Source: Christiangramia lutea | GTDB taxonomy: Bacteria > Bacteroidota > Bacteroidia > Flavobacteriales > Flavobacteriaceae | Length of the DNA stretch: 64,000 nt | Assembly (NCBI RefSeq): GCF_022489035.1 | Contig: NZ_JAKVTV010000002.1 | Location: 124,001-188,000 of the forward strand | Reading direction: 5' to 3' | In this document: piece after piece, positions 13,062 through 30,108 of the stretch | Numbering within the stretch: position 1 is the first letter of the stretch | Layout: each line of letters opens with the position of its first letter | Position numbers and translations under genes: made by a program | The notes under the pieces: generated by a model | The model's database searches: none | What the model was told of the DNA's origin: nothing | Seen by the model: only the letters and a program-made list of their open reading frames with translations

Positions 13062-14201
13062 TTAAATAGATTTATAAATAAGGTTCATGAAATCTTCAAA
13101 TTTAGATGGTTCAAGCCACCTGGTAACAATTACCATATTATTCTTTTGGTCAATAACGATGAAATTTCCTCCAAATCCTGCTGCATAAAAAATGCTCTCA
13201 TCGATTTTTTCCATATGCCGGTCACCTTTTGCATTCAGCCACCACATATAACCATAATTTGAATTTGGCTTAGAAGGTTGGATAGCCTCGCTTATTAGAT
13301 CTCCGGAAATTAATTCTCTATTCTCCCATTTTCCGTTATTCATAATTAGAAGTCCGAACCTGGCCATATCTTCGGTATTAATGAACATACCTCCGCCTGA
13401 ATGTCCACCACCGCTAACAGATTGCATTTTTAAGCCATCTATGGTAGTCCAGGAATTTTCATACCCAAACCATCTCCAGCTTTGAGAAGCGCCAATAGGT
13501 TCCATAATTTCATTCTTCAGAATCTTTGGGAGGGGTTGCCGGAAGACATTCAAAAGTGAGTAAGCCAGAACATTCACCCTTACATCGTTGTATTTGAAAT
13601 GAGTACCGGGTTCATTTAAGTCTCTGGATCGCCATTCATCAATGGTTTTGTCCTGTGGAGGCCTGTCGGCCCAATCAAATCCACCCCAAAGCTGGCCACT
13701 CCAATCTGAATTTTGCTGAAGTAAATGTTGCCAGGTGATCTTTGAATTATGATTCCCTTCAAAAGTATCGTCCCAAACATAGTTCACAACAGGTTCATCA
13801 AAGCTGGTAATTAAATTTTTATCTCTGGCGAGCAGGGCAGTAGTAGAAAGAAAACTTTTGGTAACGCTGAAAGTCATGTCTACTCTTTTAGTATCACCCC
13901 ATTTAGCGACCAGGTAACCGTCTTTCAAAATCATTCCGGCAGGTCCATCTCTTCTTTTGGTGGGACCAAGGATCTCATGAAAAGGTTCCTGTTGAAAACC
14001 TTTCAGGATAGCTTGCTTTAAATCTTTCGAGCCGGAGTATTCATTGCTTTTAGCAAAATCAACTGCTCTGGTAAGTTCCAGGTTGTATTCTGAAGCTTGT
14101 TTTTCCTTCCATTCTCCCGCAGCTGGAAAATATATTTCCTGAGCTGATAAAGAAAAAGAAATGAAAAATAATATGCTGTAGATTAAATAGCTTGATTTCA
14201 T
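13062..14201 (-). CDS. Serine hydrolase, beta-lactamase family (class C-like)
   Basis: A 379-residue exported protein of the penicillin-binding/beta-lactamase fold. A signal peptide covers residues 1-20 (YLIYSILFFISFSLSAQ). The catalytic SxxK motif is FSVTKSFLS near residue 132, and the second motif region reads FKYNDVRVN near 202. GGGHSGGGMFINTEDMARFG near 270 is typical of the esterase/aminopeptidase branch. It is more likely an esterase or peptidase acting on cell-envelope substrates than an antibiotic-hydrolysing lactamase. It overlaps rmuC upstream by four bases. Confidence 0.85.
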   Translation of the reverse strand: MKSSYLIYSILFFISFSLSAQEIYFPAAGEWKEKQASEYNLELTRAVDFAKSNEYSGSKDLKQAILKGFQQEPFHEILGPTKRRDGPAGMILKDGYLVAKWGDTKRVDMTFSVTKSFLSTTALLARDKNLITSFDEPVVNYVWDDTFEGNHNSKITWQHLLQQNSDWSGQLWGGFDWADRPPQDKTIDEWRSRDLNEPGTHFKYNDVRVNVLAYSLLNVFRQPLPKILKNEIMEPIGASQSWRWFGYENSWTTIDGLKMQSVSGGGHSGGGMFINTEDMARFGLLIMNNGKWENRELISGDLISEAIQPSKPNSNYGYMWWLNAKGDRHMEKIDESIFYAAGFGGNFIVIDQKNNMVIVTRWLEPSKFEDFMNLIYKSI

Positions 14202-15634
14202 TTAGCGTTTAGGGTTTGATTGTCAGTTTGTTCACTAATTTCTTCTTCATGATCATTGTCATAGGCCCTTTCCAGCCAATTCTGGTTGATCTTTTGCTTT
14301 GGTGCAATTCCTAGTTCTTCAAGTTTATCTATATCCTTTATTAGATTCTGTTGTCCGGTTAATTTCTTCATGGCACCACTGTAGGCATTTTTCGTAGAGT
14401 CTATTCTATCTCCAACAGTTTTTAGATCATCAAGCAAAATCTTGAATTTATGATATAGACTGGCAGCGTGTTTAGCTATGGCAATAGCATTTTGCTGTTG
14501 TTTTTCATTGCTCCAAATAGTATCGATGGTTCTTAAGGTAGATAATAGGGTAGTAGGGCTTACCAGAAGAATGTTTTTCTGAAATGCTGTATAAAAAAAG
14601 CTGTTGTCTATGTTCTGCGCAAGGTACAGTGCTGGTTCAACAGGAATGAACATCAGCACGAAATCTGGTGATTTCATTTCGTGAAGGTCTTCATACTTCT
14701 TATTGCTCAATTGCACCACATGATTGTTCAGTGAGCGAATATGGTCTTTAAGGTAACGTTCCCTATCTTCCTTATCCTCTTCACTCATATATTTTTCATA
14801 AGCAATCAGGGAAACTTTGGAATCTATTACCATACGCCTTTCATTTGGGAGATGTATCACCACGTCTGGATATTGCCTGTTTCCGTCTTCATCTACATGA
14901 GATTCCTGGAGAAAATATTCCCTGTCTTTCTCCAGACCCGATTTTTCCAGGACCTTTTCTAGAATTAATTCACCCCAGTTACCCTGGGTTTTGCTTTCAC
15001 CTTTCAGGGCTTTGGTAAGGTTGTTGGCTTCTTCACTAATCCTAATATTCTGTTCATGCAGGTTTCGAAGTTGCTCACCGAGTTCTGAATGACGACGAAT
15101 AAAATTCTCGTTGTTATGATTAACCTTGTCCTCAAAAGATCTGATCTTCTCTTTTAACGGATCCAGGATATTCTCGATATTCTGTTTATTGAGATTGGTA
15201 AATTTCTCCGATTTCTTTTCAAGGATCCTGTTAGCTAGATTTTCAAATTCCTTGCTGAACTTTTCCTGTAATTTTTCAACCTCGGCTTTCTGCTCTTCAT
15301 TTCTCTCCTTTAAATTATTAAATTGAGAATTTTTATGGGCTAATTGTAAACTAAGGTCTTCTTTTTCCTGCCGTATTCTTTCGCGGTCATATTCGATCTT
15401 TTCAATTTCAACTTTTGCCTCTTCTTTAAGTTGATGCATGTCAGTTTTAAAATCCTCTAAGTTTCTATCCATCTGAAATTTAAGTTCTTCTATGTGAAGG
15501 TATAGTTGATGGTTTTTTTCTTCCAGTCGCCCGGTCTCCGTTTTGGATTTTAATCCGGAAATTAGTTTCCCTATATAAATTCCAATACCTAAAGCAATAA
15601 AAAAAATAATGGAGATGATGAGGTAATCGTTCAT
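14198..15634 (-). CDS. rmuC: DNA recombination protein RmuC homologue
   Basis: A 478-residue protein with an N-terminal membrane helix (residues 4-22), a long coiled coil (about 30-200) and an RmuC domain (about 205-420). Diagnostic segments are LKGESKTQGNWGELILEKVLEKSGL, of which GNWGELILE is the most conserved, then PDVVIHLPNERRMVIDSKV and FVLMFIPVEPALYLA. RmuC limits inversions at short inverted repeats and has a nuclease-like core. It heads a five-gene operon running to the SBF transporter, and a -7 box (TATCTTTG) lies about 20 bases upstream. Confidence 0.93.
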   Translation of the reverse strand: MNDYLIISIIFFIALGIGIYIGKLISGLKSKTETGRLEEKNHQLYLHIEELKFQMDRNLEDFKTDMHQLKEEAKVEIEKIEYDRERIRQEKEDLSLQLAHKNSQFNNLKERNEEQKAEVEKLQEKFSKEFENLANRILEKKSEKFTNLNKQNIENILDPLKEKIRSFEDKVNHNNENFIRRHSELGEQLRNLHEQNIRISEEANNLTKALKGESKTQGNWGELILEKVLEKSGLEKDREYFLQESHVDEDGNRQYPDVVIHLPNERRMVIDSKVSLIAYEKYMSEEDKEDRERYLKDHIRSLNNHVVQLSNKKYEDLHEMKSPDFVLMFIPVEPALYLAQNIDNSFFYTAFQKNILLVSPTTLLSTLRTIDTIWSNEKQQQNAIAIAKHAASLYHKFKILLDDLKTVGDRIDSTKNAYSGAMKKLTGQQNLIKDIDKLEELGIAPKQKINQNWLERAYDNDHEEEISEQTDNQTLNAK

Positions 15635-15756: not shown

Positions 15757-16773
15757 CTATTCATTTTCGAAATACTCAAAGGCATCGATAATATCAAGGT
15801 ATACACCGTCAAATCCTGCATTTTGAATTTTTCGCAAATATGAATTTTCAGATCTGTATATGATGTTTTTCCAATCTGTATGCCAGTATTTTACTTTATA
15901 ATTACCTGCCCAGTTTGGATTCTCTTTGGTAAGCCAGGCTGGCGCGTAGGTTTCCCAGTTTTTCTGCCAGTAGAACCGGTACTCTTCGGCTTCACCTATA
16001 GACATATAGGCTATAACCAGGCGGGAACCACCATTTCCTTTTTTCTTTAGTGAAGCAATCTCTTCAGCAGAAAAAGCATCAAATCTCCCAAAAAAAGCAT
16101 CGATGATCAAAAGGTCGTAATTGGTCTCAGCTAATTTATCTATGAGTTCTTCCTTTGATCTAAAATTCGAAAAATTCAACAGGTACAGAAAATTTCGCAC
16201 TTCCTCTAGTTTTTGGATGTCCCTTGTGTTCTCCCTGAAAATCTTACTTTGTGGAATTTCATTCAATTCACGTTTTGCCACAAATGGGATGAAATCTTTG
16301 TTGCTATTCAAAAAATACGAGTGGGTAACGTTCTGGTCTGAAAATGCATAATCTATACTAAAAACGGGTTTTTTGATTTGCTTTATCAGGTTTAGATAAT
16401 TAATTAAATAAGAATTCTCCTGATGCGGAGTAGGAAGGTCATCTTCTAAATAACCATAAAAAAGATCTTCCTGGGCTACGGCGCTAATTGCGTTAAGGTA
16501 TGGGGTGGCCGTACCGGTTTTGTTTTTACCACTTTTTTGAATCAGTTCGATTCCGTTCTGAGGAATAATAATGAAATCAGAATTTTTAGATCTGGATTTC
16601 TTGGCAATATCTTTAACCAAATCTCTCATTTTCTGTCTATAGTCTTCATTTCCGGATCTTTTCTGTGCTCTGGTCCCGGATATAGAAAATAATAGAATGC
16701 AAATAAGAAGTAAACCTTGAAACGGCTTTGGCATAAAGCTATTAATTTTTGCCAAAGATAGTTTCTTCAGCAT
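15757..16773 (-). CDS. Secreted TM1410/GH114-like glycosidase (putative polygalactosaminidase)
   Basis: A 338-residue exported protein. The hydrophobic signal region runs from about residue 18 to 36 (LLLICILLFSISGTRAQ). An in-frame ATG at 16734 would give a more typical signal peptide and may be the true start. The mature part resembles the TM1410/MJ1477 TIM-barrel family, which includes endo-alpha-1,4-polygalactosaminidases (GH114) and the hydrolase domain of PelA. Key segments are VIAYMSIGEAEEYRFYW and GFDGVYLDIIDAFEYF, with the expected acidic residues. It is divergent from the Pel-like operon and may trim the same polymer. Old names linking this family to cysteinyl-tRNA synthetase are wrong. 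Confidence 0.72.
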   Translation of the reverse strand: MLKKLSLAKINSFMPKPFQGLLLICILLFSISGTRAQKRSGNEDYRQKMRDLVKDIAKKSRSKNSDFIIIPQNGIELIQKSGKNKTGTATPYLNAISAVAQEDLFYGYLEDDLPTPHQENSYLINYLNLIKQIKKPVFSIDYAFSDQNVTHSYFLNSNKDFIPFVAKRELNEIPQSKIFRENTRDIQKLEEVRNFLYLLNFSNFRSKEELIDKLAETNYDLLIIDAFFGRFDAFSAEEIASLKKKGNGGSRLVIAYMSIGEAEEYRFYWQKNWETYAPAWLTKENPNWAGNYKVKYWHTDWKNIIYRSENSYLRKIQNAGFDGVYLDIIDAFEYFENE

Positions 16774-16865
16774 GATAATCGGTAAAAATTATCTCTATCC
16801 TTCTCGACAAAAGTTAAAACCATGCCTTCTAAAAGATTAAAAGGATAATTTTTTGGTAATAATTA

Positions 16866-16894
16866 TTTGAAATTAAAGAATAAATATATTTTTG
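16866..16894 (+). promoter_or_regulatory. Promoter of the Pel-like operon
   Basis: TTTG at 16866-16869, 17 bases, then TATTTTTG at 16887-16894. The -7 box is perfect and the spacing two bases short of consensus. The leader before the PelF-like ATG would be only about seven bases. Confidence 0.55.
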
Positions 16895-16907
16895 GAAAAA
16901 AACCTAC

Positions 16908-18431
16908 ATGCCCCAAACATCGGTTTTATTAATACTAGAAGGAACCTATCCTTTTAACGGAGGAGGTGTGTCTACCTGGGCTCACACTTTATGCAATAGG
17001 GTGAGCAATGCAGATTTTAAGTTGTATTCCATTAACGCTTCATTCGAGCAGAAACCTAAATACGAACTTAGTAAAAATATAAGTGAGGTGATACAGGTGC
17101 CGCTCTGGACCCCAGATGAACCCTACGACTATATCAGTTATGGGGAAGAATATTATAAAACAGTAGCGAAAAAAGAATGGACTACCTCAAAAATAGTTGA
17201 ACAAAAGTTTGTTCCCCTTTTCAGGAGGCTGCTTAGTTTTATCTATAGTGACAACCAGGAGATCTCAGAATTGGATGAGATATTTTATGAGCTATGGCTT
17301 TATTTCGATGATTACGACTATAAAGAAACTATTAGGAATGAACAGGTTTGGATTGCTTACAGGGATACAGTATCGAAATTTATTGTAGGCGAGCGTAACC
17401 CTGATTCTTCCCTGATAGACCTTACCGTGGGACTTCGCTGGATTTACAGGTTTCTTATCCCTCTTGCAATAGTAGACCTTCCTAAGGTTGATGTAGCGCA
17501 CCTAACCCTTAGTGGTTTCCCCGTGATTCCGGCCCTAATCGCGAATTATAAGTATGGGGCGAAAATTATCCTAACAGAACATGGCGTTTTTATTCGGGAA
17601 CGTTTGCTTGCAATAAATAGTTCAGAATATCCTTTTTTCCTGAAGCAGTTGTTGATAAGATTTTCAGAAGCTGTTGCCAGACTCGTGTACCATAAATCTG
17701 AAATGATCATTTCGGTGAATAAGTTCAATCAGAAATGGGAAAAATGGTATGGTGCCGATCCTTCAAAATTTAAAACAATTTATAACGGCATAGATCCTGA
17801 GATTTTTAAGCCCGGCCCAAAACCAGCTCATTTAAAGAATATTCCAACGGTGGTAGCAGTGGCTCGTATTTTTGAGCTCAAGGATATTCTTACGATGATA
17901 AGATCCTGTGCAGTTGTAAAAAGGTCGATTCCAGATATCAGGTACATCGTATATGGAGATGATAAGGCAGTACCAGAGTATACTGAAACTTGTTTGAAAC
18001 TAATAAATGAGTTAGGGCTTCAGGAGAATTTCAAGTTTATGGGTAACCGGAATAATCCGGAAGAACTGTTCCTGGAAGGAGATATTTCAATTTTAACATC
18101 TATATCTGAAGGTTTCCCGTATACAGTGATAGAATCTTTGGCTTGTGGAGTTCCGGTTGTTTCAACCGATGTTGGTGGAGTGAAAGAGGCACTGGACGAA
18201 AGCTGCGGATTTACCTGCAAGCCTAAGGACGCTGAGGAAATAGGTGAAAAGGTAGTTAAGCTTCTCCTGGATGAAACTCTGAGGAAAGAAATGGCCGTGA
18301 AAGGCCGTGAAAGGATTTTAAAGAATTTCACGATGAATAAATTCATCGCTGAGTATGAGGATATTTATGATAATCTGAAATATCCAACTAAAAAGCAGGA
18401 TAAAAAAGAAGAAGCTGCAACCCTATATTAA
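16908..18431 (+). CDS. pelF: PelF-type glycosyltransferase (GT4)
   Basis: A 507-residue cytoplasmic glycosyltransferase. It opens with LEGTYPFNGGGVSTWAH, the PelF signature around the glycine-rich acceptor loop, and has LTEHGVFIRERL near residue 222. The GT4 C-terminal half contains TIYNGIDPEIF, VARIFELKDI and the EX7E motif EGFPYTVIE at about 401-409, followed by CGVPVVSTDVGGVKE. In Pseudomonas, PelF uses UDP-GalNAc to build the Pel polysaccharide. It is the first gene of a five-gene set and is followed after three bases by a PelG-like gene, the same F-G order as in known pel operons. Confidence 0.85.
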   Translation: MPQTSVLLILEGTYPFNGGGVSTWAHTLCNRVSNADFKLYSINASFEQKPKYELSKNISEVIQVPLWTPDEPYDYISYGEEYYKTVAKKEWTTSKIVEQKFVPLFRRLLSFIYSDNQEISELDEIFYELWLYFDDYDYKETIRNEQVWIAYRDTVSKFIVGERNPDSSLIDLTVGLRWIYRFLIPLAIVDLPKVDVAHLTLSGFPVIPALIANYKYGAKIILTEHGVFIRERLLAINSSEYPFFLKQLLIRFSEAVARLVYHKSEMIISVNKFNQKWEKWYGADPSKFKTIYNGIDPEIFKPGPKPAHLKNIPTVVAVARIFELKDILTMIRSCAVVKRSIPDIRYIVYGDDKAVPEYTETCLKLINELGLQENFKFMGNRNNPEELFLEGDISILTSISEGFPYTVIESLACGVPVVSTDVGGVKEALDESCGFTCKPKDAEEIGEKVVKLLLDETLRKEMAVKGRERILKNFTMNKFIAEYEDIYDNLKYPTKKQDKKEEAATLY

Positions 18432-18434
18432 AAA

Positions 18435-20048
18435 ATGACCAAAGAACAGATAAAGGCTACTTCGAAACTCATTGTTTCTATAAAGGAACGAAATGGTAAA
18501 CCTGTTAACGTTTATGTTGTTGCCGCAAATATTGAATCTTTCGGTATAAGAGAGGTAGATGTAAAACCTGATTATGGTTTTGATAGCATTCTTGATCTGG
18601 CACGTTTTGTATATAAGGCCTATGATGCTAAAGCCCTGGCCAATTTAAAGAATAATAATCAGCGTATCGCTGAAGCAAGGAATTATAAACGTCTGGCTAT
18701 AAGCGATTATATTACCTCCAGGAATACTAAAAGATTCATTTTTGATTATGCCTCGGGACTGGTTCACCTTTTCCCGGTGGCAGTACAGATAATTGCTATA
18801 ATTCTCTTCGGCTTCTCATTATGGACATTTTCTGAATTTAATAATCTTCAATCTACTGCGGTGGTGCTAGGAGTTATTTCGGGGTTTATCATTAGTGCGG
18901 GCTTCGTGCAAGTAATAGGTAAACAGGTTTCATATTACTGGTATAATGAAGATTTTCATATGGCCAAGTATTCCACCATAAAGATCATTAAGCGAGGCAC
19001 TTTGACGATTCTTGGCTTTTTTCTGCTTTCCATGCTGGTGAATTTTATTTTACCACTATATCCGGCCTTATTTGTTGTGATCACTTTTAGTTACGCTATC
19101 CTGGTAGGTTTCCTGCTACTCGTCCTGGCACCGCTTTATGCTCTAAAGCAGCGCTGGATGATCTCTTTAAGCATCTTTCTAGGTACGGTATTGGCTTTAA
19201 CACTACATTGGACTACAGATCTACATCCTTATTTTATTCATTCATCTGGCATACTGCTTTCCAGTTTGATTGTAATTACTTACATCTATGTATTTTTTAA
19301 TTATAAACTCGAGAGAAATCCACATGTTAAGAAGAAACCGAAGGTGATGCTTTCTTTATACAGGAATTTCAATTATTTCCTTTATGGCTTTTTTATTTTC
19401 CTGTTCGTCTTTTTAGACAGGATCGTGGCGTGGTCTTCCACTTTGAACAGAGAGATTCCATATATAATTTATTATGAAAAAGATTATGAGATTGGGATGG
19501 ATCTTGCGATCGTGATATTCTTTCTTTTAGGTGGGGTAATGGAATACGCCATTCATTCTTATATACGCCACATGGATTTTCATCAATTGGAAGTCAAATA
19601 TTCAGAATATAAGGAATTCAACAGGAAAATGCTCAATATGTATTATAAGCATCTAAGGATATTTGCACTAAGCGCCTTCGGAATATTTTTCCTGCTTTAT
19701 CTTATTATTACCAAACCCTGGGGTTATAGTTCTGGCTTCGAAGAGCAATTATCTCCACTCAGCATTAAAGTGTGCGTGATTGGGGGTATCGGGTATTTAT
19801 TTTTCACTTTGGGAATGCTAAACGTGCTTTATCAATATACATTAGGAAAACACCGCAGGCCATTGCTCGCTATCATAATTGCTTTTTTGGTCAACTTCGT
19901 AATAGGCGTGCTCTTGAGTCGTTGGGTTTCCTATGAATACAGTGTGGTAGGTATGCTCGCGGGTTCACTGGTTTTTATGTTATTAACAACCAGGGAAACT
20001 TACCACTTCTTTAAAAATCTGGACTATTATTATTATGCATCTTATTAA
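18435..20048 (+). CDS. pelG: PelG-like polysaccharide transporter
   Basis: A 537-residue polytopic membrane protein with about twelve hydrophobic segments from residue 112 onward. It resembles PelG, a Wzx/MATE-like inner-membrane transporter that works with PelF. The most PelG-like stretch is FLDRIVAWSSTLN followed by YEIGMDLA, near residues 325-355. The protein is longer than Pseudomonas PelG (456 residues): residues 1-110 form a polar cytoplasmic extension rich in basic residues (KNNNQRIAEARNYKRLAISD). It sits three bases after pelF and overlaps the next gene by 14 bases. Adjacency to pelF is a large part of the case. Confidence 0.75.
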   Translation: MTKEQIKATSKLIVSIKERNGKPVNVYVVAANIESFGIREVDVKPDYGFDSILDLARFVYKAYDAKALANLKNNNQRIAEARNYKRLAISDYITSRNTKRFIFDYASGLVHLFPVAVQIIAIILFGFSLWTFSEFNNLQSTAVVLGVISGFIISAGFVQVIGKQVSYYWYNEDFHMAKYSTIKIIKRGTLTILGFFLLSMLVNFILPLYPALFVVITFSYAILVGFLLLVLAPLYALKQRWMISLSIFLGTVLALTLHWTTDLHPYFIHSSGILLSSLIVITYIYVFFNYKLERNPHVKKKPKVMLSLYRNFNYFLYGFFIFLFVFLDRIVAWSSTLNREIPYIIYYEKDYEIGMDLAIVIFFLLGGVMEYAIHSYIRHMDFHQLEVKYSEYKEFNRKMLNMYYKHLRIFALSAFGIFFLLYLIITKPWGYSSGFEEQLSPLSIKVCVIGGIGYLFFTLGMLNVLYQYTLGKHRRPLLAIIIAFLVNFVIGVLLSRWVSYEYSVVGMLAGSLVFMLLTTRETYHFFKNLDYYYYASY

Positions 20049-20847
20049 GATCTTTATGTTGGTTTCTACTATAGGGCTGGGTAGTCTGCAGCTCAAATCT
20101 CAGTCTCTCACTGCTGAAAATAAAGTGTTGTTTGTTTATGGTGATTTTTATCCTGAAAAAGTTTCTGGCTATGACCTAATAGTCCTTGAAGGAGCACATT
20201 TCAGTTCAGATGATGTCTTAAAACTAAAGAAGCATAATGGAAAAGTTCTCAGCTATATAAGCTTAGGAGAGGTAAATGAATCTGCTGCTCATTACCCTGA
20301 ATTAAAAGATAAAACCCTTGGAAAAAATGATATTTGGAATAGTTATATACTGGATATAGGTAACAGGGAAACTATCGATGCTCTTAAAGCTATTTTTGAG
20401 CATAATCTAAATAAAGGAATGGATGGGATGTTCCTTGATAATATCGATAATTACACGCAATTTGGACCTACACCTGAAAAGAAACAGGAGCTTATCAATT
20501 TCCTTAGTGATATCAAGCAAAAATATCCCGAGATCTATCTTTTACAAAATGCCGCTGTTCCCATAGTAGAAGAAACTTCGGCTTATATCGACGCCCTGGC
20601 GAAGGAAAGTGTAGTTACAAACTACGATTTTGCCAAAAAAAAATATGAGCTACGCTCCAACTCTGAATTTCAGAACATACTTTACGAACTTAAGAGTATG
20701 AATGAAAATTATGATATCCCTGTGATCCTTATCGAATATGCTGAGGACAGAAATATGCAAAATGAAATCCAGGGAAGATTAGATGAGATTAACTGGCCTG
20801 TTTTTATTGGAAAAATAGACCTGCAAACTATTCCTGAAAGAGACTGA
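20035..20847 (+). CDS. Stand-alone PelA-type hydrolase domain (TM1410/GH114-like)
   Basis: A 270-residue exported protein with a signal peptide (about residues 1-22) and one TIM-barrel domain of the TM1410 family. Conserved points are GKVLSYISLGEVNES near residue 82, GMDGMFLDNIDNY near 130 with paired aspartates, and SVVTNYDFA near 198. In P. aeruginosa this type of domain is the N-terminal third of PelA and cuts alpha-1,4-linked GalNAc chains. Here it is a separate protein. It overlaps the PelG-like gene by 14 bases and ends seven bases before the large membrane protein, so co-expression is very likely. Confidence 0.75.
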   Translation: MHLIKIFMLVSTIGLGSLQLKSQSLTAENKVLFVYGDFYPEKVSGYDLIVLEGAHFSSDDVLKLKKHNGKVLSYISLGEVNESAAHYPELKDKTLGKNDIWNSYILDIGNRETIDALKAIFEHNLNKGMDGMFLDNIDNYTQFGPTPEKKQELINFLSDIKQKYPEIYLLQNAAVPIVEETSAYIDALAKESVVTNYDFAKKKYELRSNSEFQNILYELKSMNENYDIPVILIEYAEDRNMQNEIQGRLDEINWPVFIGKIDLQTIPERD

Positions 20848-20854
20848 TTTTTAT

Positions 20855-22843
20855 ATGTTTTTAGATCCCTTTTTACTTAGCGGACCTTTAAGGATCATCT
20901 TGATCTTTGTATTATTAATTGTGCTTTACAGGGTAGCGGCAAGTAAGGTGCCGGCTCAAACAGCTTTGAATTTCCTTATTCCTAGCGTGGTGCTCATCTT
21001 CTCAGCCAGTGTACTTGGAGGTTTCTTTTTAATCCTTATTCAGGCTTTTGACCTTTTTGTAATTCTAACTATCATTCTGGGTATTGTCATTTTTGTTTTT
21101 ATGGATATTAAGTTCCGAAAATCTATTAAAGAGCAACTGCAGAAAATTTATACCAGAAGTATTTTATATGTCGTGATAAAGCTGGAAAAACGGGAGAATT
21201 TTATAGATCGTGATAACTGGGAGAAACCTAAACTAAGAATGGATTCTGAGAACCTGAATGTCTTTAACAGGAACTGGCAGGTTTTTATCGGGTTAAGTTT
21301 ACCGGTGATCACTTATCTCTCCAGAAGTTCCCTGTTCCAGTATGATACATCCACTTTATCCACAGCATGGTATCAAAAGCTTTCCCTTGTCAAGAACATC
21401 AGTCTAAATAATTGGTTTTTTAACTCCGGGGATATGATGGGTGATTACTTGCTTATAGATTTATATTCCAGGATTACGAATATTACAGAAGCTGTGGCTC
21501 TGCAGACATCCGGTTTACTGGAATCATCCTTGCTTTCTATAGTGATTTACTGGGTGGTATATAAAATATGTCGGAAACATGCTCCGGGGATTGTTGCAGG
21601 ACTAAGCTTTAGTCTTCTATATGCTTTTCTACCTTTAAACATTGATCTTCTGGTAGAGCATAAGTCGATATTTGCCGCTATGATCCTTGCTCTTCCGGCT
21701 ATGTTGTTCAGTATTTACCCTCAAACTTTTAGATTCAGAAAAAAGACCGCCAGCCTCGTTTTAATCATCCTGTTTTCGGCTATCCTTTTGTTGGATCTAT
21801 TTGTTGGGCTGCTTATATGTTTTCCCTTCCTGGTTTTAATTTTTCTCTTTCGATTCTGGCGAAGAAAGAGGCAGATGATCATGGTAATAACTGCATATGC
21901 ATTATCTGTATTGGGCCTCGGAATTATTTACGGGATCGCTGCCTGGTGGTTCCAGGAGGACTTTAGTGTTTTCATACGATCCAATCTGTTTTCTTATAAT
22001 TCCTATACCTATAACCCAAAACTATTATATCCTCTCAAGGAGTTCATAGGTTATTATCAGTTTACAGGTCTAATTTTTTTAGGAATAAATATTCTAAAAT
22101 TCATTCAGTATCCTAAGAATTTTAAAGCCAGTCTTATATTTTTAACATTTATCAATTTGCTGTTTCTGGCGTATCAATTAAACCTTTCTTTCGTAGATAT
22201 GGATATGCTGAATGAGGTACTGTGTATTTTTATACCCGTTTTTTTTGGGATTATTTTCAATTTAAGCATCACCATTTTTTCCAGGTTAAGGTTGCACGGA
22301 AGGTTATTCACAAACCTGGAGATTGGAGCGGCTTTAATAATGATGGTAGGGCTCGTATATTTCACATTCCCAAAAGATGCTTCTTTTGAAAATGTGAATA
22401 CAGCATTAGAAACTGAAGTTTTCAAAGCTTATGCTAAGATCCAGGATGAACATTTACCATATTCATATGCGGTGGTGAACTCTCTTCAAAATTCAACTTT
22501 TAGTAGTGGTAGCCACTATTTCTATAATTATAATTATTTCAATAATAAATATCTGGCTCAGGACAAGCTTTTTCAGGAGGTAAAACAGGACAGGAATTTT
22601 TTAAGGGCGAATCCTGAGGTAATTCCTCCGCAAAGTCTTTTTGTATTCGTTTACAACGGGGAACTTCAGGGTAGATCGCGTAATGGACTTCAACCGGAGG
22701 AACAGCAGGAAGTCAGGTCACGCCTGGAATTCTTGAAGAATAAAGGAAGGCAGGTCACACCATATTATCAAAGTGAGGTATTGGATGTCTATGTGATTGT
22801 TAATGAGCCCGGAACCAGTAAAATACAGGAGTTACTATTTTAA
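20855..22843 (+). CDS. Large polytopic membrane protein of the Pel-like operon, unknown
   Basis: A 662-residue protein I do not recognise. Three hydrophobic segments fill residues 9-80. A basic cytoplasmic-looking stretch follows (about 82-140), then about ten further helices to residue 505, and a soluble C-terminal domain of about 150 residues rich in Asn, Tyr and Phe (SHYFYNYNYFNNKYL). A broad similarity to GT-C-type membrane glycosyltransferases is possible (large extracytoplasmic loop SLNNWFFNSGDMMGDY after an early helix), but no diagnostic motif is certain. It is not PelD (no GAF or GGDEF) and not PelE (no TPR). Its stop overlaps the next start by one base (TAATG). Confidence 0.7.
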   Translation: MFLDPFLLSGPLRIILIFVLLIVLYRVAASKVPAQTALNFLIPSVVLIFSASVLGGFFLILIQAFDLFVILTIILGIVIFVFMDIKFRKSIKEQLQKIYTRSILYVVIKLEKRENFIDRDNWEKPKLRMDSENLNVFNRNWQVFIGLSLPVITYLSRSSLFQYDTSTLSTAWYQKLSLVKNISLNNWFFNSGDMMGDYLLIDLYSRITNITEAVALQTSGLLESSLLSIVIYWVVYKICRKHAPGIVAGLSFSLLYAFLPLNIDLLVEHKSIFAAMILALPAMLFSIYPQTFRFRKKTASLVLIILFSAILLLDLFVGLLICFPFLVLIFLFRFWRRKRQMIMVITAYALSVLGLGIIYGIAAWWFQEDFSVFIRSNLFSYNSYTYNPKLLYPLKEFIGYYQFTGLIFLGINILKFIQYPKNFKASLIFLTFINLLFLAYQLNLSFVDMDMLNEVLCIFIPVFFGIIFNLSITIFSRLRLHGRLFTNLEIGAALIMMVGLVYFTFPKDASFENVNTALETEVFKAYAKIQDEHLPYSYAVVNSLQNSTFSSGSHYFYNYNYFNNKYLAQDKLFQEVKQDRNFLRANPEVIPPQSLFVFVYNGELQGRSRNGLQPEEQQEVRSRLEFLKNKGRQVTPYYQSEVLDVYVIVNEPGTSKIQELLF

Positions 22844-25800
22844 TGAAACAATACTACCTTTCTAATTTTTTCCGATTTTCAATATTATTAATGCTTATCT
22901 TTTTATCTGGCTGCGCCGATGATGAATACGGTGTTCTTAAAGTGGATAGGGAAATGATGCGTGTTGCCAAAATTGATAATTCTAAACCACTGGTTACTTA
23001 TATTATCGATCCTGAAGATCCCTACGGGCAATTAAACCTGGAGCAGTTGAAGCAAACACTGAACTACGTTAAAATACCATTTTCAAAAATTGAGCTTGAT
23101 GAATTTAATTCAAATTCAGAATTGCAAAAATCTATTAAAGTGGTGGTAATAGAGGATCTATCAGGGCTTAAAAAGAAATCTTATAATAGCCTGCTTCAAT
23201 TTGTGGCCAATGGGGGGCAGGTAGTTATTTCCAAAGCCGGTGTAGACGAAAATTTTGGTTTTATGGCGGGTGTAAAACAGGGTGCCAACTATGAAACCGA
23301 TACCCTCGCCATGGGATATAGATTTAAAACCAATTTTCTTCCTGCAATGAATTCAAAGGTTTACAGGAATAGATCTAACCATTTTGGATTAAAGGGAAGT
23401 AATTTTTCAGAAAAGGTCGAGGTACTTGCGAGTTCCATTAATCAGGAGGACTATCCGGTGATCCTGAAAAATAGGATAGGAAGGGGTAATGTGCTGGTCT
23501 TTAATACCACCCAGGTTTTTCCAAAGGAAGAAAGAGGTCTTTTATTTGCAGCCTTACTTCCCGGTCTGGAAGGTGTTCCATACCCTGTAGCAAATGTGTC
23601 GAGTATATTTCTGGATGATTTTCCAGCCCCATTATATGATATTAAAAGAGAGCCGGTAACCACCGAAATGGATATAAGTCAGGCAAACTATTATATGAAT
23701 GTGTGGTGGGAGGATATGCTGGAACTGGCAAGAGAAGAAAACCTGGAGTATTCGGCTTACGTGTGTTTCGATTATTCCAATCAAACCACTCCGCCTTTTA
23801 ATTTCTACGAATGGCAGAATTCTGGTAATGCTGAGCAGGATCTTTCAGAGCGCAGGCTTAATCGCCTTATGCGAAACTTTAATGACCTGGGACATGAGAT
23901 GGCGCTACATGGCTATAATCACGCTTCTCTTACCAGGGAAATCTGGCCTAGTCAAAAATACATGGAGCTTAGCCTTGAAGCTGTTAATAAGCGTTGGCTA
24001 GCCGAGGAATACGGATCTTTTCCGAGAAGTTATGTACCTCCTTCTAATATTATAGATAGTTTAGGTTTTGCAGCCCTGGAAAGCAGTATGCCGAGCATAG
24101 TTTACAATGCGAGTATATATCTTGGAGATTTTGAAGAAGGAGGGGGGCGAGAGTTTGGACCGGAGCCCCTAAATGACCATTTTTTCAATTTCCCCAGGAT
24201 AACAAGCGGGTTTGAGCTAGAGTCTGCATCAAATTTTACACTTCATTCGGCTTATTTATATACAGGTATCTGGACTCATTTTGTACATCCGGATGATGTA
24301 TTTCAAATTCCGGGAACTTTCAGCAGTGGCGATTATCAGCTTAGGAATTCAGAAGGATATGGCTGGCGTGTCTCCGAGGATGGATCCCCTGGGTTATTTC
24401 CCCGGTTCCGGCAGTATCTGAATGAAATCAAAAAGTTGTATCCATTTATAAGGTTTCTGAAGGTATCTGACGCTGCTCGGATCACTATGAACTGGAGATA
24501 CGCGAATTACAGATTTTCTGAAAATGAAGAAAGACTGAAGATGGAGTCTAATGCTGAGGGACTGAATTCGCAGAAGAATTTCTGGTTTACCTATGTTAAA
24601 AAAGAAAATTCATTGAGAATAGAAAATTATCTGAAAAACAATAATTTTCAATTTACTAGAACTACTCTTTTAGACGGTTTCCTTTACAATATTGAATCTC
24701 CGTCAGCAGAATTGGAGTTACCAAGGCTAAGAAACATCGGGTCTAAAGCGAGAAATGATATAAGTGCAAAATTTGAAGATTATTTACAGCCTGAAGAAGA
24801 GGTCCAGGAGCAAAATATTCGCGAACAGATAGGAGTTTTAAAGTCGGAAATTGAAAGATCTCGTAGTTTTAAAAAACAAACCTGGCTTCAATTGCTTAGA
24901 TATTTAGGTTGGGAAGACAGGACCTCTGAAATATGGCCATTGCTGGATTTCAAATACTCTAATAATAAAAATTACAGGGAAAAATACATTTTATTTTCAA
25001 AGGCTATTATAAAGGAAACTGGGGACTATCCAGACCTAAATACCAGAGAACGCTGGATGTTAAGACAATTGGAGGTTAACCCAGCTAACCTGACCCTGAA
25101 AAAGAAATACATAGATTACTTTGGCTCAGAAAATGGAGTGACCTTTACGAAAGAAGAATTGCTTCAGCTCTATGCTAATTCTGAGCAACCTGATGAAAAA
25201 AACAGCTACTATTCCCTGCTGATCCACGAATTTCCAGGAGAGGCTTTTCGTATGGCAAAGGAGGCGGGGACCTGTACAGATAATGAGCTCTTATCGGCGA
25301 ATATGGCCTGGACCCTGGCCGATAACGGCTACTATAAGGAAGCCATTTTACTTTCTCAATGCACGGACTCCTTATCTCAATCTGATGTAGATGACTGGCG
25401 TTTGCAGACCGGAGAATATGAGTTCCTGGAAGGAAAGAATTATTCACTATACCTTGAATATCTTATAGAGGATAACCCGGGGATGGCTGCAAGAAAACTA
25501 ATTGATGTTGATCCCTGCAAAGAAAAACTAAAACCTATTTCAGTAAATATTGCCTATGCTTTCGCCGCACAGGGAAGTTTCAGGAAAGCACTGGAATGGT
25601 CGGCGTGTAGTGATGGTTTTCCAATAGTGGAAAGACTACAGTGGCTATACGCATTACAGAACTTTCAAAAGATCGAGGAGATCTATAAGGAACTCAGCCA
25701 GGATGTGAAAAGTACCGAGGATATTCAGCATTTTATGGCAGATTACTACTTAGGTAGAGGGGAGATAGTAAAATCCTGGAAATTTACTTCTGAATTGTCA

Positions 25801-26826
25801 CCTGGAAAATTAAAATCGACCCTTCAGAAACAATTGAACAAGGATGTGGTTTACCTGGATTACAAAGAAAAGAAAGAGCTTTTAGACTTTTACCCGGCTT
25901 TATTCTATCCGGAGGTTAAACAGGAGGTTGAAAAGGAAATACGGATTGAAAATGGTAATTTTCTCCAGATCGATTCTGAAATAATTAGTGATAGGTTCGA
26001 TCCTACTTCATTCAGAACTTCCCTTTCCTACGGCATGAAGGATAAAAATTTCAATACTCATATGTTGGGATTAAGTAAAAGAAATGCCTATGCTGTAAAT
26101 GCAGAAATCACTGCTGAAGAAAACTCTGATGAAAGGCTTATGGGGCTGTCTTATCGCTTCATTTCCAATGAAAGAGCCGCCAAGTTTAATTACAATCTTG
26201 GCTCTGAATTGGAATTTAATAATAGAGGGAAGGCGTTTTTGCATCTGGATGCCAGGATCAGTTATTCGAAAGACAGTCTTTTCAGTTCTCTGCAACTTTT
26301 CAGAAGACCAGCGATCACGGGACCTGCATACATACTGGATATATACCAGTCTCAGATCAATATTTATGAGGAGCTTCAATTTAAGAGGAAATGGCAGGCC
26401 ATTCTTTATGTTGAGGCTAACCACTATGAAGATGATAACGTAATGGATGTCCAGGCCTCGACTAACCTTACTTATGACCTAAAACTTGGAGCTGGCTCAA
26501 AATTTAAACCTTATACAGAAATATCCGGTATGTTGGGAAATACCAATAGACCAAGTGGATATCCTTACTGGACCTTAGACGAACGTTTCTACGGTGGATT
26601 TGGAGCTTCATATGAATACAGGAATGAGGAATCTGCCTGGCTTATAAATCTTGATGCAGCTTATTTCCTGGATACTTTTTCAGATCAATTTCAGCGCTAC
26701 AGGGGTAGTGTACTATGGCCGGTTACCCCATTTTTACACTTTAAAGCAAATGCTGAATTCTACAGCTTGAAAAACTTCTATTCCAATAACTTCGGTTTCG
26801 GATTGAAATATTATTTCAAGGATTAG
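22843..26826 (+). CDS. PelA-type deacetylase fused to a PelB-like TPR and outer-membrane barrel
   Basis: A 1327-residue lipoprotein with lipobox LSGC (C24). About residues 45-230 form a Rossmann-like region (PLVTYIIDPEDPYGQ; VVVIEDLSG; NGGQVVISKAG). About 245-560 is a DUF2194/PelA-type polysaccharide deacetylase: SIFLDDFPAP near 252, GHEMALHGYNH near 349 and WTHFVHPDDV near 477 provide Asp and His metal ligands. Residues about 690-1030 are TPR-like, with a repeated ANMAWTLADNGYYKEA / VNIAYAFAAQGSFRKA motif. From about 1040 alternating strands end in FGFGLKYYFKD, suggesting a C-terminal barrel. Pseudomonas uses separate PelA and PelB for these jobs. The gene ends the operon and overlaps btuD at the stop codons. 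Confidence 0.78.
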   Translation: MKQYYLSNFFRFSILLMLIFLSGCADDEYGVLKVDREMMRVAKIDNSKPLVTYIIDPEDPYGQLNLEQLKQTLNYVKIPFSKIELDEFNSNSELQKSIKVVVIEDLSGLKKKSYNSLLQFVANGGQVVISKAGVDENFGFMAGVKQGANYETDTLAMGYRFKTNFLPAMNSKVYRNRSNHFGLKGSNFSEKVEVLASSINQEDYPVILKNRIGRGNVLVFNTTQVFPKEERGLLFAALLPGLEGVPYPVANVSSIFLDDFPAPLYDIKREPVTTEMDISQANYYMNVWWEDMLELAREENLEYSAYVCFDYSNQTTPPFNFYEWQNSGNAEQDLSERRLNRLMRNFNDLGHEMALHGYNHASLTREIWPSQKYMELSLEAVNKRWLAEEYGSFPRSYVPPSNIIDSLGFAALESSMPSIVYNASIYLGDFEEGGGREFGPEPLNDHFFNFPRITSGFELESASNFTLHSAYLYTGIWTHFVHPDDVFQIPGTFSSGDYQLRNSEGYGWRVSEDGSPGLFPRFRQYLNEIKKLYPFIRFLKVSDAARITMNWRYANYRFSENEERLKMESNAEGLNSQKNFWFTYVKKENSLRIENYLKNNNFQFTRTTLLDGFLYNIESPSAELELPRLRNIGSKARNDISAKFEDYLQPEEEVQEQNIREQIGVLKSEIERSRSFKKQTWLQLLRYLGWEDRTSEIWPLLDFKYSNNKNYREKYILFSKAIIKETGDYPDLNTRERWMLRQLEVNPANLTLKKKYIDYFGSENGVTFTKEELLQLYANSEQPDEKNSYYSLLIHEFPGEAFRMAKEAGTCTDNELLSANMAWTLADNGYYKEAILLSQCTDSLSQSDVDDWRLQTGEYEFLEGKNYSLYLEYLIEDNPGMAARKLIDVDPCKEKLKPISVNIAYAFAAQGSFRKALEWSACSDGFPIVERLQWLYALQNFQKIEEIYKELSQDVKSTEDIQHFMADYYLGRGEIVKSWKFTSELSPGKLKSTLQKQLNKDVVYLDYKEKKELLDFYPALFYPEVKQEVEKEIRIENGNFLQIDSEIISDRFDPTSFRTSLSYGMKDKNFNTHMLGLSKRNAYAVNAEITAEENSDERLMGLSYRFISNERAAKFNYNLGSELEFNNRGKAFLHLDARISYSKDSLFSSLQLFRRPAITGPAYILDIYQSQINIYEELQFKRKWQAILYVEANHYEDDNVMDVQASTNLTYDLKLGAGSKFKPYTEISGMLGNTNRPSGYPYWTLDERFYGGFGASYEYRNEESAWLINLDAAYFLDTFSDQFQRYRGSVLWPVTPFLHFKANAEFYSLKNFYSNNFGFGLKYYFKD

Positions 26827-27617
26827 GTGTCTATTTTAAAGGAAGAGGAGTCGGTGTCAAATTTGATCAAACCTTTTGGGAAAAGATCTGAAAAGGCTCC
26901 AGAATCGAGCAGTTCTTTTGGAGTGCCAAATTGCACTTTTTTTTCCTGCATAAGGATGATCTTATCGCAAAGCTGAATAGCCAGGTTGATCTCGTGTGAA
27001 GCGAAAACAATGGTTTTATTCGTTTTTCTGGTGAGCTTCTTTAAAAGTTGAAGTACATACGCTTTATGGTAAAGGTCGAGGTGGGTGGTAGGTTCATCCA
27101 GAATTACCAGTGGAGTGTCCTGGGCGATGGCTCTTGCTATCAAAACTTTTTGCATCTGGCCGTCACTTAATTCATAACATTTCTTAGTTCGTAAATTTTC
27201 AATGCCTACCAGGGCCATTGCTTTTTTGATTTTTCTAAGGTCAGTTTTGGTTAACCTTCCAATCCAGTTCGTGTAAGGTTGTCTTCCCAGAGCAACCAAT
27301 TCTATAACACTTAAATTTTTTGACAAAAATTGCTCTGTCAGGACAATGCTAATATTTTTAGCAAGATCTGATGGGTTGATTTTGGATAGTTTATTTGAAG
27401 ATATAAAAACTTGTCCATCAATACTTTGAATTATTCCACTTAAAGTTTTAAGTAAAGTTGATTTTCCTGCCCCGTTCACTCCGATAACCGCAACTAGTTC
27501 TCCTGGTTTTACCTCAATATCGATTTCTGAAGCTATTAAATTTACCGTATTTTTCTTCCGGTAACCTATGCTGAGGTTTTCGGTTTTAAGGACAGTATTT
27601 GAAATTTCTGATCGCAT
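26823..27617 (-). CDS. btuD: ABC transporter ATPase, FecE/BtuD type
   Basis: A 264-residue cytoplasmic ATPase. Walker A is GVNGAGKSTLL near residue 46, the signature is ELSDGQMQKVLIARAIAQD near 150, Walker B is LVILDEPTTHLDL, and the switch histidine lies in FASHE. The Q-loop follows SIVLTEQF. This subtype energises uptake of B12, haem or siderophores. It follows btuC by one base in the btuF-btuC-btuD operon, and the neighbouring cobalamin riboswitch and btuB make B12 the likely cargo. The signature has D in place of the second common G (LSDGQ), which is frequent in this subfamily. Confidence 0.85.
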   Translation of the reverse strand: MRSEISNTVLKTENLSIGYRKKNTVNLIASEIDIEVKPGELVAVIGVNGAGKSTLLKTLSGIIQSIDGQVFISSNKLSKINPSDLAKNISIVLTEQFLSKNLSVIELVALGRQPYTNWIGRLTKTDLRKIKKAMALVGIENLRTKKCYELSDGQMQKVLIARAIAQDTPLVILDEPTTHLDLYHKAYVLQLLKKLTRKTNKTIVFASHEINLAIQLCDKIILMQEKKVQFGTPKELLDSGAFSDLFPKGLIKFDTDSSSFKIDT

Positions 27618-27618
27618 T

Positions 27619-28650
27619 CTAAAAATTAAATTTTCTCTTTCTAACCAGTAACCAGATCACGACAGGCGCTCCAATTAACGAAGTTATAGCATTAATGGGT
27701 AAGCTGAATTCGCTGCCGGGTAACTGCGCAATTATATCACAAATCAACATCAAAATAGCTCCTCCAAAGATCACCGCGGGAAACAGGGTGATATGGTTTG
27801 AAGATGGAATTATCTGCCGGATTAAATGCGGAACGGCAAGACCCACGAATGCGATAGGTCCTGCAAAGGCTGTTATGCTTCCGGCAAGCAGGCTAGTGGC
27901 GATAATAATCGCTAACCGATTCTTTCTAATGTTTGTTCCCAGGCTACGGGCGTATTGTTCACCTAGGAGAAGGGAATTGAGGTTTTTAATGCTTCCAATA
28001 CTTATAAGAATTCCTAAAAACCAGAATAATCCCAGGATCAGGACTTCCTCCCAGCTAAGGTCTCCCAGGCTTCCGTAGGACCAGAATACATACTGCTGTA
28101 ATTGCGAGGCGGGACTAAAATAGGCCAGAACGCTAACGATGGCCGCTGTAAGGCTGGCAAACATCAAACCTATGATTAGTATAGCCATGGTGTCTCTAAG
28201 CCTAATAGAGGCTAGGATTACGGCAAATAAAACCAACAAGCTTCCTATACTCGACGCGATCACCAGGCTCCATTTGGAGAGCAGGATGGCAGCAAATGAA
28301 GCACCAAAGATAGAAGCTCCCATAAAAATAATAGCGACCCCAAGGCTGGCACCGCTACTCAATCCTAAAACATATGGTCCGGCTAGTGGATTCCTGAAAA
28401 GGGTTTGCATTAAAAGTCCGCTCACTGCAAGGCCAGAGCCGGTAATAATGGCAGTTATCGCCTTAGGTAGTCGGTAATTTAAAATGATATAACGCCACGT
28501 ATCTTTTTCTACATCCAGGCCCAATAATGAAGAAGCAACTTCAACAATTGGAATATTTACTGAGCCTAGACTAATATTGAATAATCCCGCAAGGACCACC
28601 GCAAGGAATAATAAGATAATCGAAATTGTATATTTCTTCTGGTTCAGCAT
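27619..28650 (-). CDS. btuC: FecCD/BtuC family ABC permease
   Basis: A 343-residue inner-membrane permease with about ten helices. The family pattern includes PKAITAIITGSGLAVSGLLM (residues 51-70), QTLFRNPLAGPYVLGLSSGA, LGEQYARSLGTN and FAGPIAFVGLAVPHLIR. It forms the membrane channel for the BtuF/BtuD proteins. Its ATG overlaps the btuF stop by one base and the ATPase follows after one base, so all three are translated from one message. Confidence 0.87.
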   Translation of the reverse strand: MLNQKKYTISIILLFLAVVLAGLFNISLGSVNIPIVEVASSLLGLDVEKDTWRYIILNYRLPKAITAIITGSGLAVSGLLMQTLFRNPLAGPYVLGLSSGASLGVAIIFMGASIFGASFAAILLSKWSLVIASSIGSLLVLFAVILASIRLRDTMAILIIGLMFASLTAAIVSVLAYFSPASQLQQYVFWSYGSLGDLSWEEVLILGLFWFLGILISIGSIKNLNSLLLGEQYARSLGTNIRKNRLAIIIATSLLAGSITAFAGPIAFVGLAVPHLIRQIIPSSNHITLFPAVIFGGAILMLICDIIAQLPGSEFSLPINAITSLIGAPVVIWLLVRKRKFNF

Positions 28651-29828: not shown

Positions 29829-29867
29829 TCACTTACTTAAGTATTTTGTTTAATTTCGCCCTGAAAT

Positions 29868-30062
29868 TTTGGTTCGGCGCCGATTTATTTCTGCGTGGAT
29901 TAAAAGGGAATCAGGGCGGAGGCTTTACTCCGAAAACCTGAGCTGTTCCCGCAACTGTAAGCTTAGCCCGTTAGGGTGGCTGCAATAATTCTTCAAACCA
30001 CTGTTGGTATTTGGCTAATGGGAAGGTGAATTGCAGTACGTGAGCCAGGAGACCTGCCTGAA
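29868..30062 (+). promoter_or_regulatory. Cobalamin (adenosylcobalamin) riboswitch
   Basis: A textbook B12 element. It has an AAAGGGAA-like block at 29902-29910, GCTGTTCCCGCAACTGTAA at 29942-29960, a CCACTG segment at 29998-30003, GGGAAGGTG at 30020-30028, and a complete B12 box AGCCAGGAGACCTGCC at 30043-30058. It precedes btuB by about 50 bases, so bound B12 should reduce expression of the receptor and the propeller lipoprotein. The in-frame ATG at 30031 lies inside the element and is not a start codon. Confidence 0.96.
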
Positions 30063-30108
30063 TTTTCAACTAATATCGAGTGACTTTCGGGATAAAGGTC
30101 GGCAGATT

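Follow-up and report, generated by a model that had tools for sequence, protein, structure and literature searches.

A probable Pel-type exopolysaccharide cassette of Bacteroidota and Balneolota in which a predicted deacetylase is fused to a predicted exporter

Introduction

Does a tight run of genes in the flavobacterium Christiangramia lutea encode a Pel system and, if so, of what kind? The locus occupies positions 15757–26826 of a 64,000-nucleotide stretch (assembly GCF_022489035.1, contig NZ_JAKVTV010000002.1, positions 124,001–188,000), referred to below as the window. The initial annotation, made from the sequence alone, had described it as an unusual, reorganised Pel locus with split and fused domains. 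We computed domain content, predicted catalytic residues, predicted folds and co-occurrence for the locus and its relatives, and we read it as a Pel-type synthase-dependent exopolysaccharide system, in a form kept by Bacteroidota and Balneolota and lacking an input from cyclic di-GMP (c-di-GMP), with a probability of roughly 0.85. The reorganisation was recovered in both of its parts, the split-off hydrolase and the deacetylase fused to an exporter, and the most likely role of the cluster is to make and export a sticky, Pel-like biofilm polymer. Five features of Pel (PelF, PelG, a PelA-type hydrolase, a deacetylase, and an exporter built of tetratricopeptide repeats (TPR) and a β-barrel) are recognisable by sequence and predicted fold, from which the system is predicted to work like Pel; it is not a canonical Pel system, since the cassette lacks PelD, which is among the defining parts.

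Predicted Pel functions of the cassette

The cassette opens with a GT4 polymerising glycosyltransferase (16908–18431, + strand, 507 aa) that scored 180.4 bits against the NCBIfam PelF model NF038011, for which the cut-off is 100. All 28 aligned members matched this model at 1e-20, and its assignment as a true PelF therefore stands. The possibility of a misannotated ordinary GT4 enzyme was rejected because the window protein scores 62 bits higher with NF038011 than with the next NCBIfam model, and because the gene co-occurs with the other cassette genes. Viral carriage of PelF was also considered, and a scan of viral contigs returned no relative. A second, shorter PelF-like GT4 gene (~395–430 aa) lies directly upstream of PelF in loci L135, L139, L140, L145–L147 and L128 (Balneolota); the copy in L139 contains DUF3492.

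PelF is followed by a PelG-like inner-membrane exporter (18435–20048, + strand, 537 aa), for which the claim of family membership was upheld with less support than hoped for: the Pfam model PF16933 covered residues 107–534 at 30.1 bits against a cut-off of 29, and 12 of the 28 members passed it at 1e-3. A conserved N-terminal extension of ~80–100 aa (window positions 18435–18750) lies beyond the Pfam model, and we offer the idea that it could dock PelF in place of PelD.

The third gene (20035–20847, + strand, 270 aa) encodes a stand-alone hydrolase of the PelA type (GH166-like), which matched the PelA structures 9cgy and 5tcb at E-values of 4e-15 and 6e-15. Its predicted catalytic residues, D135 and E191, are present in 75/75 members of 240–300 aa and were aligned by hand with the PelA pair D160/E218, both of which are named as PelA mutants; the acid/base is given as E223 in PMC12054363. 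By domain and residues, the protein is a predicted α-1,4-galactosaminidase of the PelA type.

The remaining Pel functions are combined in the last gene (22843–26826, + strand, 1327 aa), which joins a lipoprotein-type signal, a CE26/DUF2194 deacetylase, a TPR-like superhelix and a 16-strand barrel. The DUF2194 part (residues 58–590, 23014–24612; CBM114 plus CE26-like) scored 237.8 bits against PF09960, and a 16-member profile of it matched PDB entry 9ZAU at E 1.6e-80. This entry is PelADA of Bacillus cereus, the founder of both CE26 and CBM114, which deacetylates oligomers of α-1,4-linked N-acetylgalactosamine (GalNAc) (PMC13254593). The PelADA base D262, the metal ligand D263 with the HxxxH pair, R458 and the acid H488 correspond to D258, D259, H356/H360, R452 and H482 of the fusion, a pairing counted by hand from printed alignment rows, and all six residues are invariant in the 16 members. 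The domain thus appears, on its predicted base, metal and acid residues, to be a Pel deacetylase and a member of CE26, closest in sequence to PelADA of B. cereus and not to the Pseudomonas PelA deacetylase.

For the remainder of the protein, AlphaFold2 (AF2) predicted a TPR-like helical superhelix (residues ~634–1037, 24742–25953) followed by a barrel of 16 long strands (residues ~1040–1324, 25960–26814). The model has a pLDDT of 89.4; its pTM of 0.59 is its weak point, and the strand count was read by eye from the tool output. Foldseek ranks 1–5 were BcsC (three entries), 4y25 and PelBC. Entry 4y25, titled 'polysaccharide outer membrane secretin', reached a TM-score of 0.74 by target, and is a structure that we take to be PgaA. 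The modelled C-terminal part would accordingly fill the role of PelB as a TPR-plus-barrel exporter.

A strict pattern finds a lipobox-like motif at the start of 63 of 75 long members, inspection by eye adds nine of the other 12, and the window protein has the motif as well; the fusion is a probable lipoprotein. Export of the protein to the cell surface by way of this signal was set aside, because the TPR-like part would have to be periplasmic if the barrel inserts in the usual manner. The proposed joining of a PelA deacetylase to a PelB-like exporter was hence correct as to the fusion itself, and needs amending as to the deacetylase, which is of the B. cereus type, and as to the probable lipid anchor.

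The choice of domains that are fused can be set beside work on Pseudomonas aeruginosa, in which TPRs 9–14 of PelB bind PelA, raising its deacetylase activity and lowering its hydrolase activity, and in which these repeats are contacted by the deacetylase domain of PelA and not by the hydrolase (PMC12022489). The pair in contact there is the pair fused here, with the hydrolase kept separate; that paper nowhere uses the words 'fusion' or 'fused'. Rearranged pelA and pelB genes are known across species (PMC7112194).

Conservation of gene order and co-occurrence

Whether the arrangement is shared was a test set beforehand. Named genomes were scanned with a profile of the fusion protein, and the best 80 of at least 121 confirmed relatives were kept as the locus set, in which Salegentibacter, Gillisia, Maribacter, Aquimarina, Cellulophaga, Wenyingzhuangia, Flavobacterium, Roseivirga, Fodinibius, Balneola and other genera are represented. 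Nine loci had too little upstream sequence for the order to be judged. Among the 71 testable ones, PelF, PelG, hydrolase, membrane protein and fusion follow one another on one strand in 70; the sole exception, L143 from the fish-associated Flavobacterium davisii, has broken reading frames for PelF, PelG and the membrane protein. The predicted sharing across genera was thus confirmed, and a one-off rearrangement was rejected on the same count.

The second test was made in a sample of 296 genomes of the phylum, the C. lutea genome included; the collection counts Fodinibius and Roseivirga, which NCBI taxonomy places in Balneolota and Cytophagales, respectively, within this phylum. One set of 23 genomes holds all four of fusion-type DUF2194 (E < 1e-50), the membrane protein, PelF (E <= 1e-30 and over the cut-off) and PelG, and none of the four was counted in any other genome; the spread is therefore patchy yet all-or-none within the sample. 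Left out of these counts are a PelG match at 9e-4 and 14 DUF2194 matches of lower score, of which one, in G338, narrowly exceeds the cut-off; the PelF threshold would miss PelF-like genes that score less well, and the genome searches score first-look candidates only. In the sampled genomes the membrane protein is found only with this system, and a single-sequence search found it in 4/149 genomes of the host's own family, that of C. lutea included. Examination of 23 other loci revealed the membrane protein, PelF, PelG and the fusion in every one, and a separate hydrolase in all but L046 within the stretch fetched. The description of the locus as unusual did not survive: in the phylum sample, genomes with a strong PelF showed no other arrangement.

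A membrane protein of probable GT-C fold

The fourth gene (20855–22843, + strand, 662 aa) encodes a polytopic membrane protein with a C-terminal soluble domain, designated MP below. It had been listed as a large unknown membrane protein, which remains apt insofar as MP belongs to no Pfam or NCBIfam family and no consistent family emerged among 54 members, and is superseded insofar as a probable GT-C fold can be assigned by Foldseek and hhalign. With an AF2 model built from the 54 members (pLDDT 83.5, pTM 0.86), 24 of Foldseek ranks 1–25 were GT-C enzymes or complexes by title (best E 2.9e-5), and included PglB, oligosaccharyltransferase (OST), DPY19, ALG9/ALG12, ArnT, archaeal OST, AftA/AftD and Pmt4. 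Rank 2 is a chain of the secretory translocon, probably its STT3, which is not evident from the title. All TM-scores were below 0.5, those of ranks 1–20 being 0.31–0.40 by query and 0.21–0.46 by target. In hhalign, the MP profile aligned with 11 PMT_2 proteins at probabilities of 92.7 (E 4.2e-7), 53.3 or 96.7 depending on the setting. Three other membrane families reached 1.0, 0.2 and 0.4, and two cross-controls 10.8 and 0.1; these controls are thin, at 70 PelG, 6 FecCD and 3 SBF rows, and a usable PMT_2 open reading frame (ORF) came from 11 of 25 loci. From model and profiles, we read MP as a probable GT-C family, unnamed in Pfam, whose members are or once were active. An identification of MP as PelD by sequence was dismissed, as the 24 families matched at E 1 by any of the 54 members included no PelD model.

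What MP does turns on its conserved acids. D448, D570 and R632 are present in 77/77 members. Position 164, just past the membrane helix from which the first long loop starts, is Asp (D164) in 69/77 and Asn or His in the eight Balneolota; in a 16-row alignment, all five Flavobacteriaceae rows have the loop Asp, which the 11 rows from other families lack. By our own reading of helices and charges, this loop would face outwards. GT-C enzymes presumably have their catalytic acid at such a site, in the first long loop directly behind a membrane helix.

Two accounts of MP can be built on these data. According to the first, MP is an active GT-C enzyme that would add a sugar from a polyprenyl-phosphate donor in the periplasm, so that the product would be a branched or substituted relative of Pel. 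The GT-C fold, a loop Asp at the presumed catalytic place in most members and the invariant D448 are all consistent with it, but that Asp is replaced in the eight Balneolota and absent from the other-family rows although the system is kept there, family scans identified none of the cassette proteins as a polyprenyl-phosphate sugar synthase, and the Foldseek TM-scores are low. We consider it possible, at somewhat less than even odds. According to the second, MP is a non-catalytic scaffold or gate derived from a GT-C enzyme, which would replace PelD and PelE and couple PelF, PelG and the fusion. It accommodates the missing loop Asp outside the Flavobacteriaceae/Roseivirga type, the absence of PelD and PelE from the cassette and the obligate co-occurrence with PelF and PelG in the sample, whereas D164, D448 and D570 could mark a catalytic site; we hold it with the same reserve.

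Missing Pel components and control

Neither PelC, PelD nor PelE is encoded in the cassette, as had been noted: family scans returned no such gene and the spacing leaves no room for one between the five ORFs, the search for PelC and PelE having been confined to the cassette. The PelD model PF16963 gave no match in the C. lutea genome, with a positive control that was itself silent everywhere, and no GGDEF domain was found in that genome, with a control detected in 8 of 14 cases. The latter result fits the suggestion of control by means other than c-di-GMP, and another input does exist in some relatives. An HD_5 gene lies between PelG and the hydrolase in 6 of the 71 testable loci, all Balneolota by name, and is absent from at least one Fodinibius locus, L139, and from the window. 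Signal genes within the locus include an HD_5 (HD-GYP-like) gene in L048 (4174–5796) and a GAF-SpoIIE and GAF-HD_5 pair in L046 (4962–6512 and 6988–8538); L046 retains a canonical-looking HHE..GYP motif, which we take to be that of HD-GYP domains. Because some relatives keep HD_5 or GAF genes in the locus, the signal input has probably been exchanged or lost, rather than always having been absent.

Hydrolases beside the cassette

Divergent from the cassette lies the gene for a secreted hydrolase (15757–16773, - strand, 338 aa). Both hydrolases had been predicted, and both matched GH114/TM1410-like families; what can be added is that they are circular permutations of one another. The divergent protein scored 192.7 bits against TIGR01370 (cut-off 181.25) and matched TM1410 at E 2.4e-30 in two swapped pieces, with residues 215–337 aligned to TM1410 24–140 and residues 46–170 to 150–271. 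A second structure, 9ep5, gave the same swapped order. A profile comparison of the two hydrolase families of the locus likewise gave two swapped pieces, at 97.3 and 95.6%. On these alignments, the divergent enzyme represents a naturally occurring, circularly permuted form of both the GH191 barrel and the hydrolase inside the operon, with the predicted catalytic Glu ahead of the Asp: E102 and D327 align with TM1410 E225 and D156, and both are present in 28/28 members of 300–400 aa, the window protein included. With its TM1410-like barrel and Asp/Glu pair, it is a predicted GH191 enzyme. One GH191 member degrades Pel (PMC12054363), and no word beginning 'permut' occurs in that paper. Of 12 matching records, the eight listed include proteins of Fusobacterium and Cetobacterium, which run colinear with the divergent hydrolase over 86–87%, and matches from Cereibacter, Deinococcus and Thermus, which are limited to its C-terminal half.

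A homologue of a DUF4832/DUF4874 protein is convergent with the cassette, at most 700 nt from the end of the fusion, in 32/80 loci, of which 23 are titled Flavobacterium and the rest are metagenome-assembled genomes with other titles. The L085 protein (13965–15611), the sole one scanned with Pfam, carries a type IX secretion tail, and this family is a candidate secreted Pel hydrolase. SIR_1591, a hydrolase that contains DUF4832, disrupts Pel-dependent aggregates of Streptococcus intermedius (PMC12345266), and DUF4832 genes accompany streptococcal and clostridial pel clusters (PMC7112168). Two families, each with members that degrade Pel, supply the hydrolases beside the cassette: GH191 here and DUF4832 proteins in Flavobacterium. 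A GH191-type hydrolase is found in 27/80 loci and the two together in 0/80; mutual replacement does not follow from this, as the split follows lineage.

Spacing, promoter and neighbouring genes

The six ORFs lie where they had been placed. The five + strand genes (16908–26826) form one tight cassette with spacings, from PelF to the fusion, of +3, -14, +7 and -1 nt, and the sixth ORF is separated from them by a divergent intergenic gap of 134 bp (16774–16907). At ~16887–16894 (+ strand) of this gap stands the word TAnnTTTG, which we take to be the Bacteroidota -7-like consensus; since 0.14 such words are expected by chance in 134 bp, it is weak evidence of a promoter.

Upstream neighbours were discounted as cassette members because they vary in the six loci scanned (helicase, pyruvate-carboxylase-like protein, TamB, MoxR-type ATPase, oxidoreductase and beta-helix protein); many Flavobacterium loci have an upstream gene of ~510 aa, of which that of L101 alone was identified, as the helicase. 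The S9 peptidase downstream in L013 is not constant and was likewise discounted. Behind the fusion, 4/5 Salegentibacter loci have reverse-strand genes of 264 and 343 aa, and the fifth has ones of 277 and 343 aa. In the window, positions 26823–31938 hold, judged by a look at the sequence, an ABC transporter ATPase, a FecCD-type permease, a binding protein and a TonB-dependent receptor.

Discussion

The identity of the polymer, the direction of its flow, the role of MP and the regulation are what we infer from the data above. PelF would polymerise a GalNAc-type chain from a UDP-sugar in the cytoplasm, and PelG, together with MP as a GT-C-fold subunit, would move the chain across the inner membrane. 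In the periplasm, the lipid-anchored fusion would partly deacetylate the chain, whose further path would run along the TPR-like superhelix and into the barrel of the same protein; the contact between PelA deacetylase and PelB, made by two proteins in Pseudomonas, would thereby be covalent. The separate PelA-type hydrolase would trim or clear the polymer, the divergent permuted GH191 enzyme would probably act on it once secreted, and no c-di-GMP input would be involved.

Several observations weigh against this scheme. PelC, PelD and PelE genes are absent from the cassette, and B. cereus needs PelD and PelE (PMC7112168). The PelG match is marginal, with 16 of the 28 members failing PF16933 at 1e-3. 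MP has no counterpart in the known Pel systems consulted, which could mean a decorated or a different polymer. TM1410, itself a GH191 protein, neither bound nor cleaved oligomers of galactosaminogalactan (PMC12054363), and deletion of SIR_1591 in S. intermedius had no phenotype (PMC12345266). That the locus makes some other GT4-derived surface polysaccharide with borrowed Pel-like parts, as a divergent PelG and a cassette devoid of PelC, PelD and PelE might suggest, is improbable given four kinds of Pel-linked enzyme in or beside it (PelF, the PelA-type hydrolase, the CE26 deacetylase, and a GH191 or DUF4832 hydrolase).

We thus retain the Pel-type reading, and its consequences, if true, are several. 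It would place a biofilm polymer, together with enzymes able to cleave it, in Flavobacterium, Maribacter, Salegentibacter, Balneolota and others. It would provide a naturally occurring Pel-type system whose operon has no PelD gene, and a deacetylase and exporter in one chain, in which the coupling of modification to export is open to direct structural test. It would also link an unnamed GT-C family to polymer export. In a more speculative form, which we think less likely than not, the cassettes would constitute a Pel class of Bacteroidota and Balneolota in which an undescribed GT-C family, the obligate partner of PelF and PelG, adds a lipid-linked sugar in the periplasm to give a decorated Pel, while one lipoprotein deacetylates, guides and exports the chain without c-di-GMP control.

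Comparison with known systems

A search of open-licence PMC literature, mostly at title level, yielded no description of a Bacteroidota Pel locus. The PelF mention in PMC8305213 belongs to a table for a P. aeruginosa isolate and that in PMC9012183 to a reference title, neither concerning a Bacteroidota PelF; no word beginning 'Bacteroid' occurs in the main text of PMC7112168, on Gram-positive Pel, or of PMC7112194, an operon survey.

Among GT-C glycosyltransferases, PglB, ArnT and PMT_2 share the probable fold of MP, which differs in its extra N-terminal helices, in having no Pfam family and in a loop acid that is not kept outside the Flavobacteriaceae/Roseivirga type. The exporters PgaA and BcsC have the same TPR-plus-barrel fold as the fusion and differ in lacking a fused CE26 deacetylase. 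A closer parallel is BcsZC of the Zymomonas cellulose system, in which a periplasmic polymer-processing enzyme is likewise fused to an outer-membrane pore (PMC7112194); there the enzyme is a cellulose hydrolase instead of a Pel deacetylase, and there is no PelF or PelG.

The pel-like loci of Fusobacterium and Cetobacterium (L066, L067) share with the window DUF2194, PelF and a GH191-type hydrolase colinear with its own (38% identity in Cetobacterium), whereas their DUF2194 protein of 612–621 aa has no barrel, no MP was found in them, and a GAF-domain gene is annotated in Cetobacterium. In Fusobacterium nucleatum, coculture downregulated the DUF2194 gene, pelF and pelG alike (PMC9848294). The B. 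cereus arrangement, pelDE-ADA-FG with a divergent pelAH, has in common with the window the CE26-type deacetylase, PelF, PelG and a divergent hydrolase; the window differs in its fused barrel of Gram-negative type, in the absence of PelD and PelE from the cassette, in the presence of MP, and in the divergent enzyme, which is a permuted GH191. With pelABCDEFG of P. aeruginosa, the cassette shares all five Pel features, while its hydrolase is split off, PelC, PelD and PelE are missing from it and the GT-C-fold MP is added; the P. aeruginosa deacetylase belongs to CE21, whereas that of the window is CE26-like and fused to the exporter.

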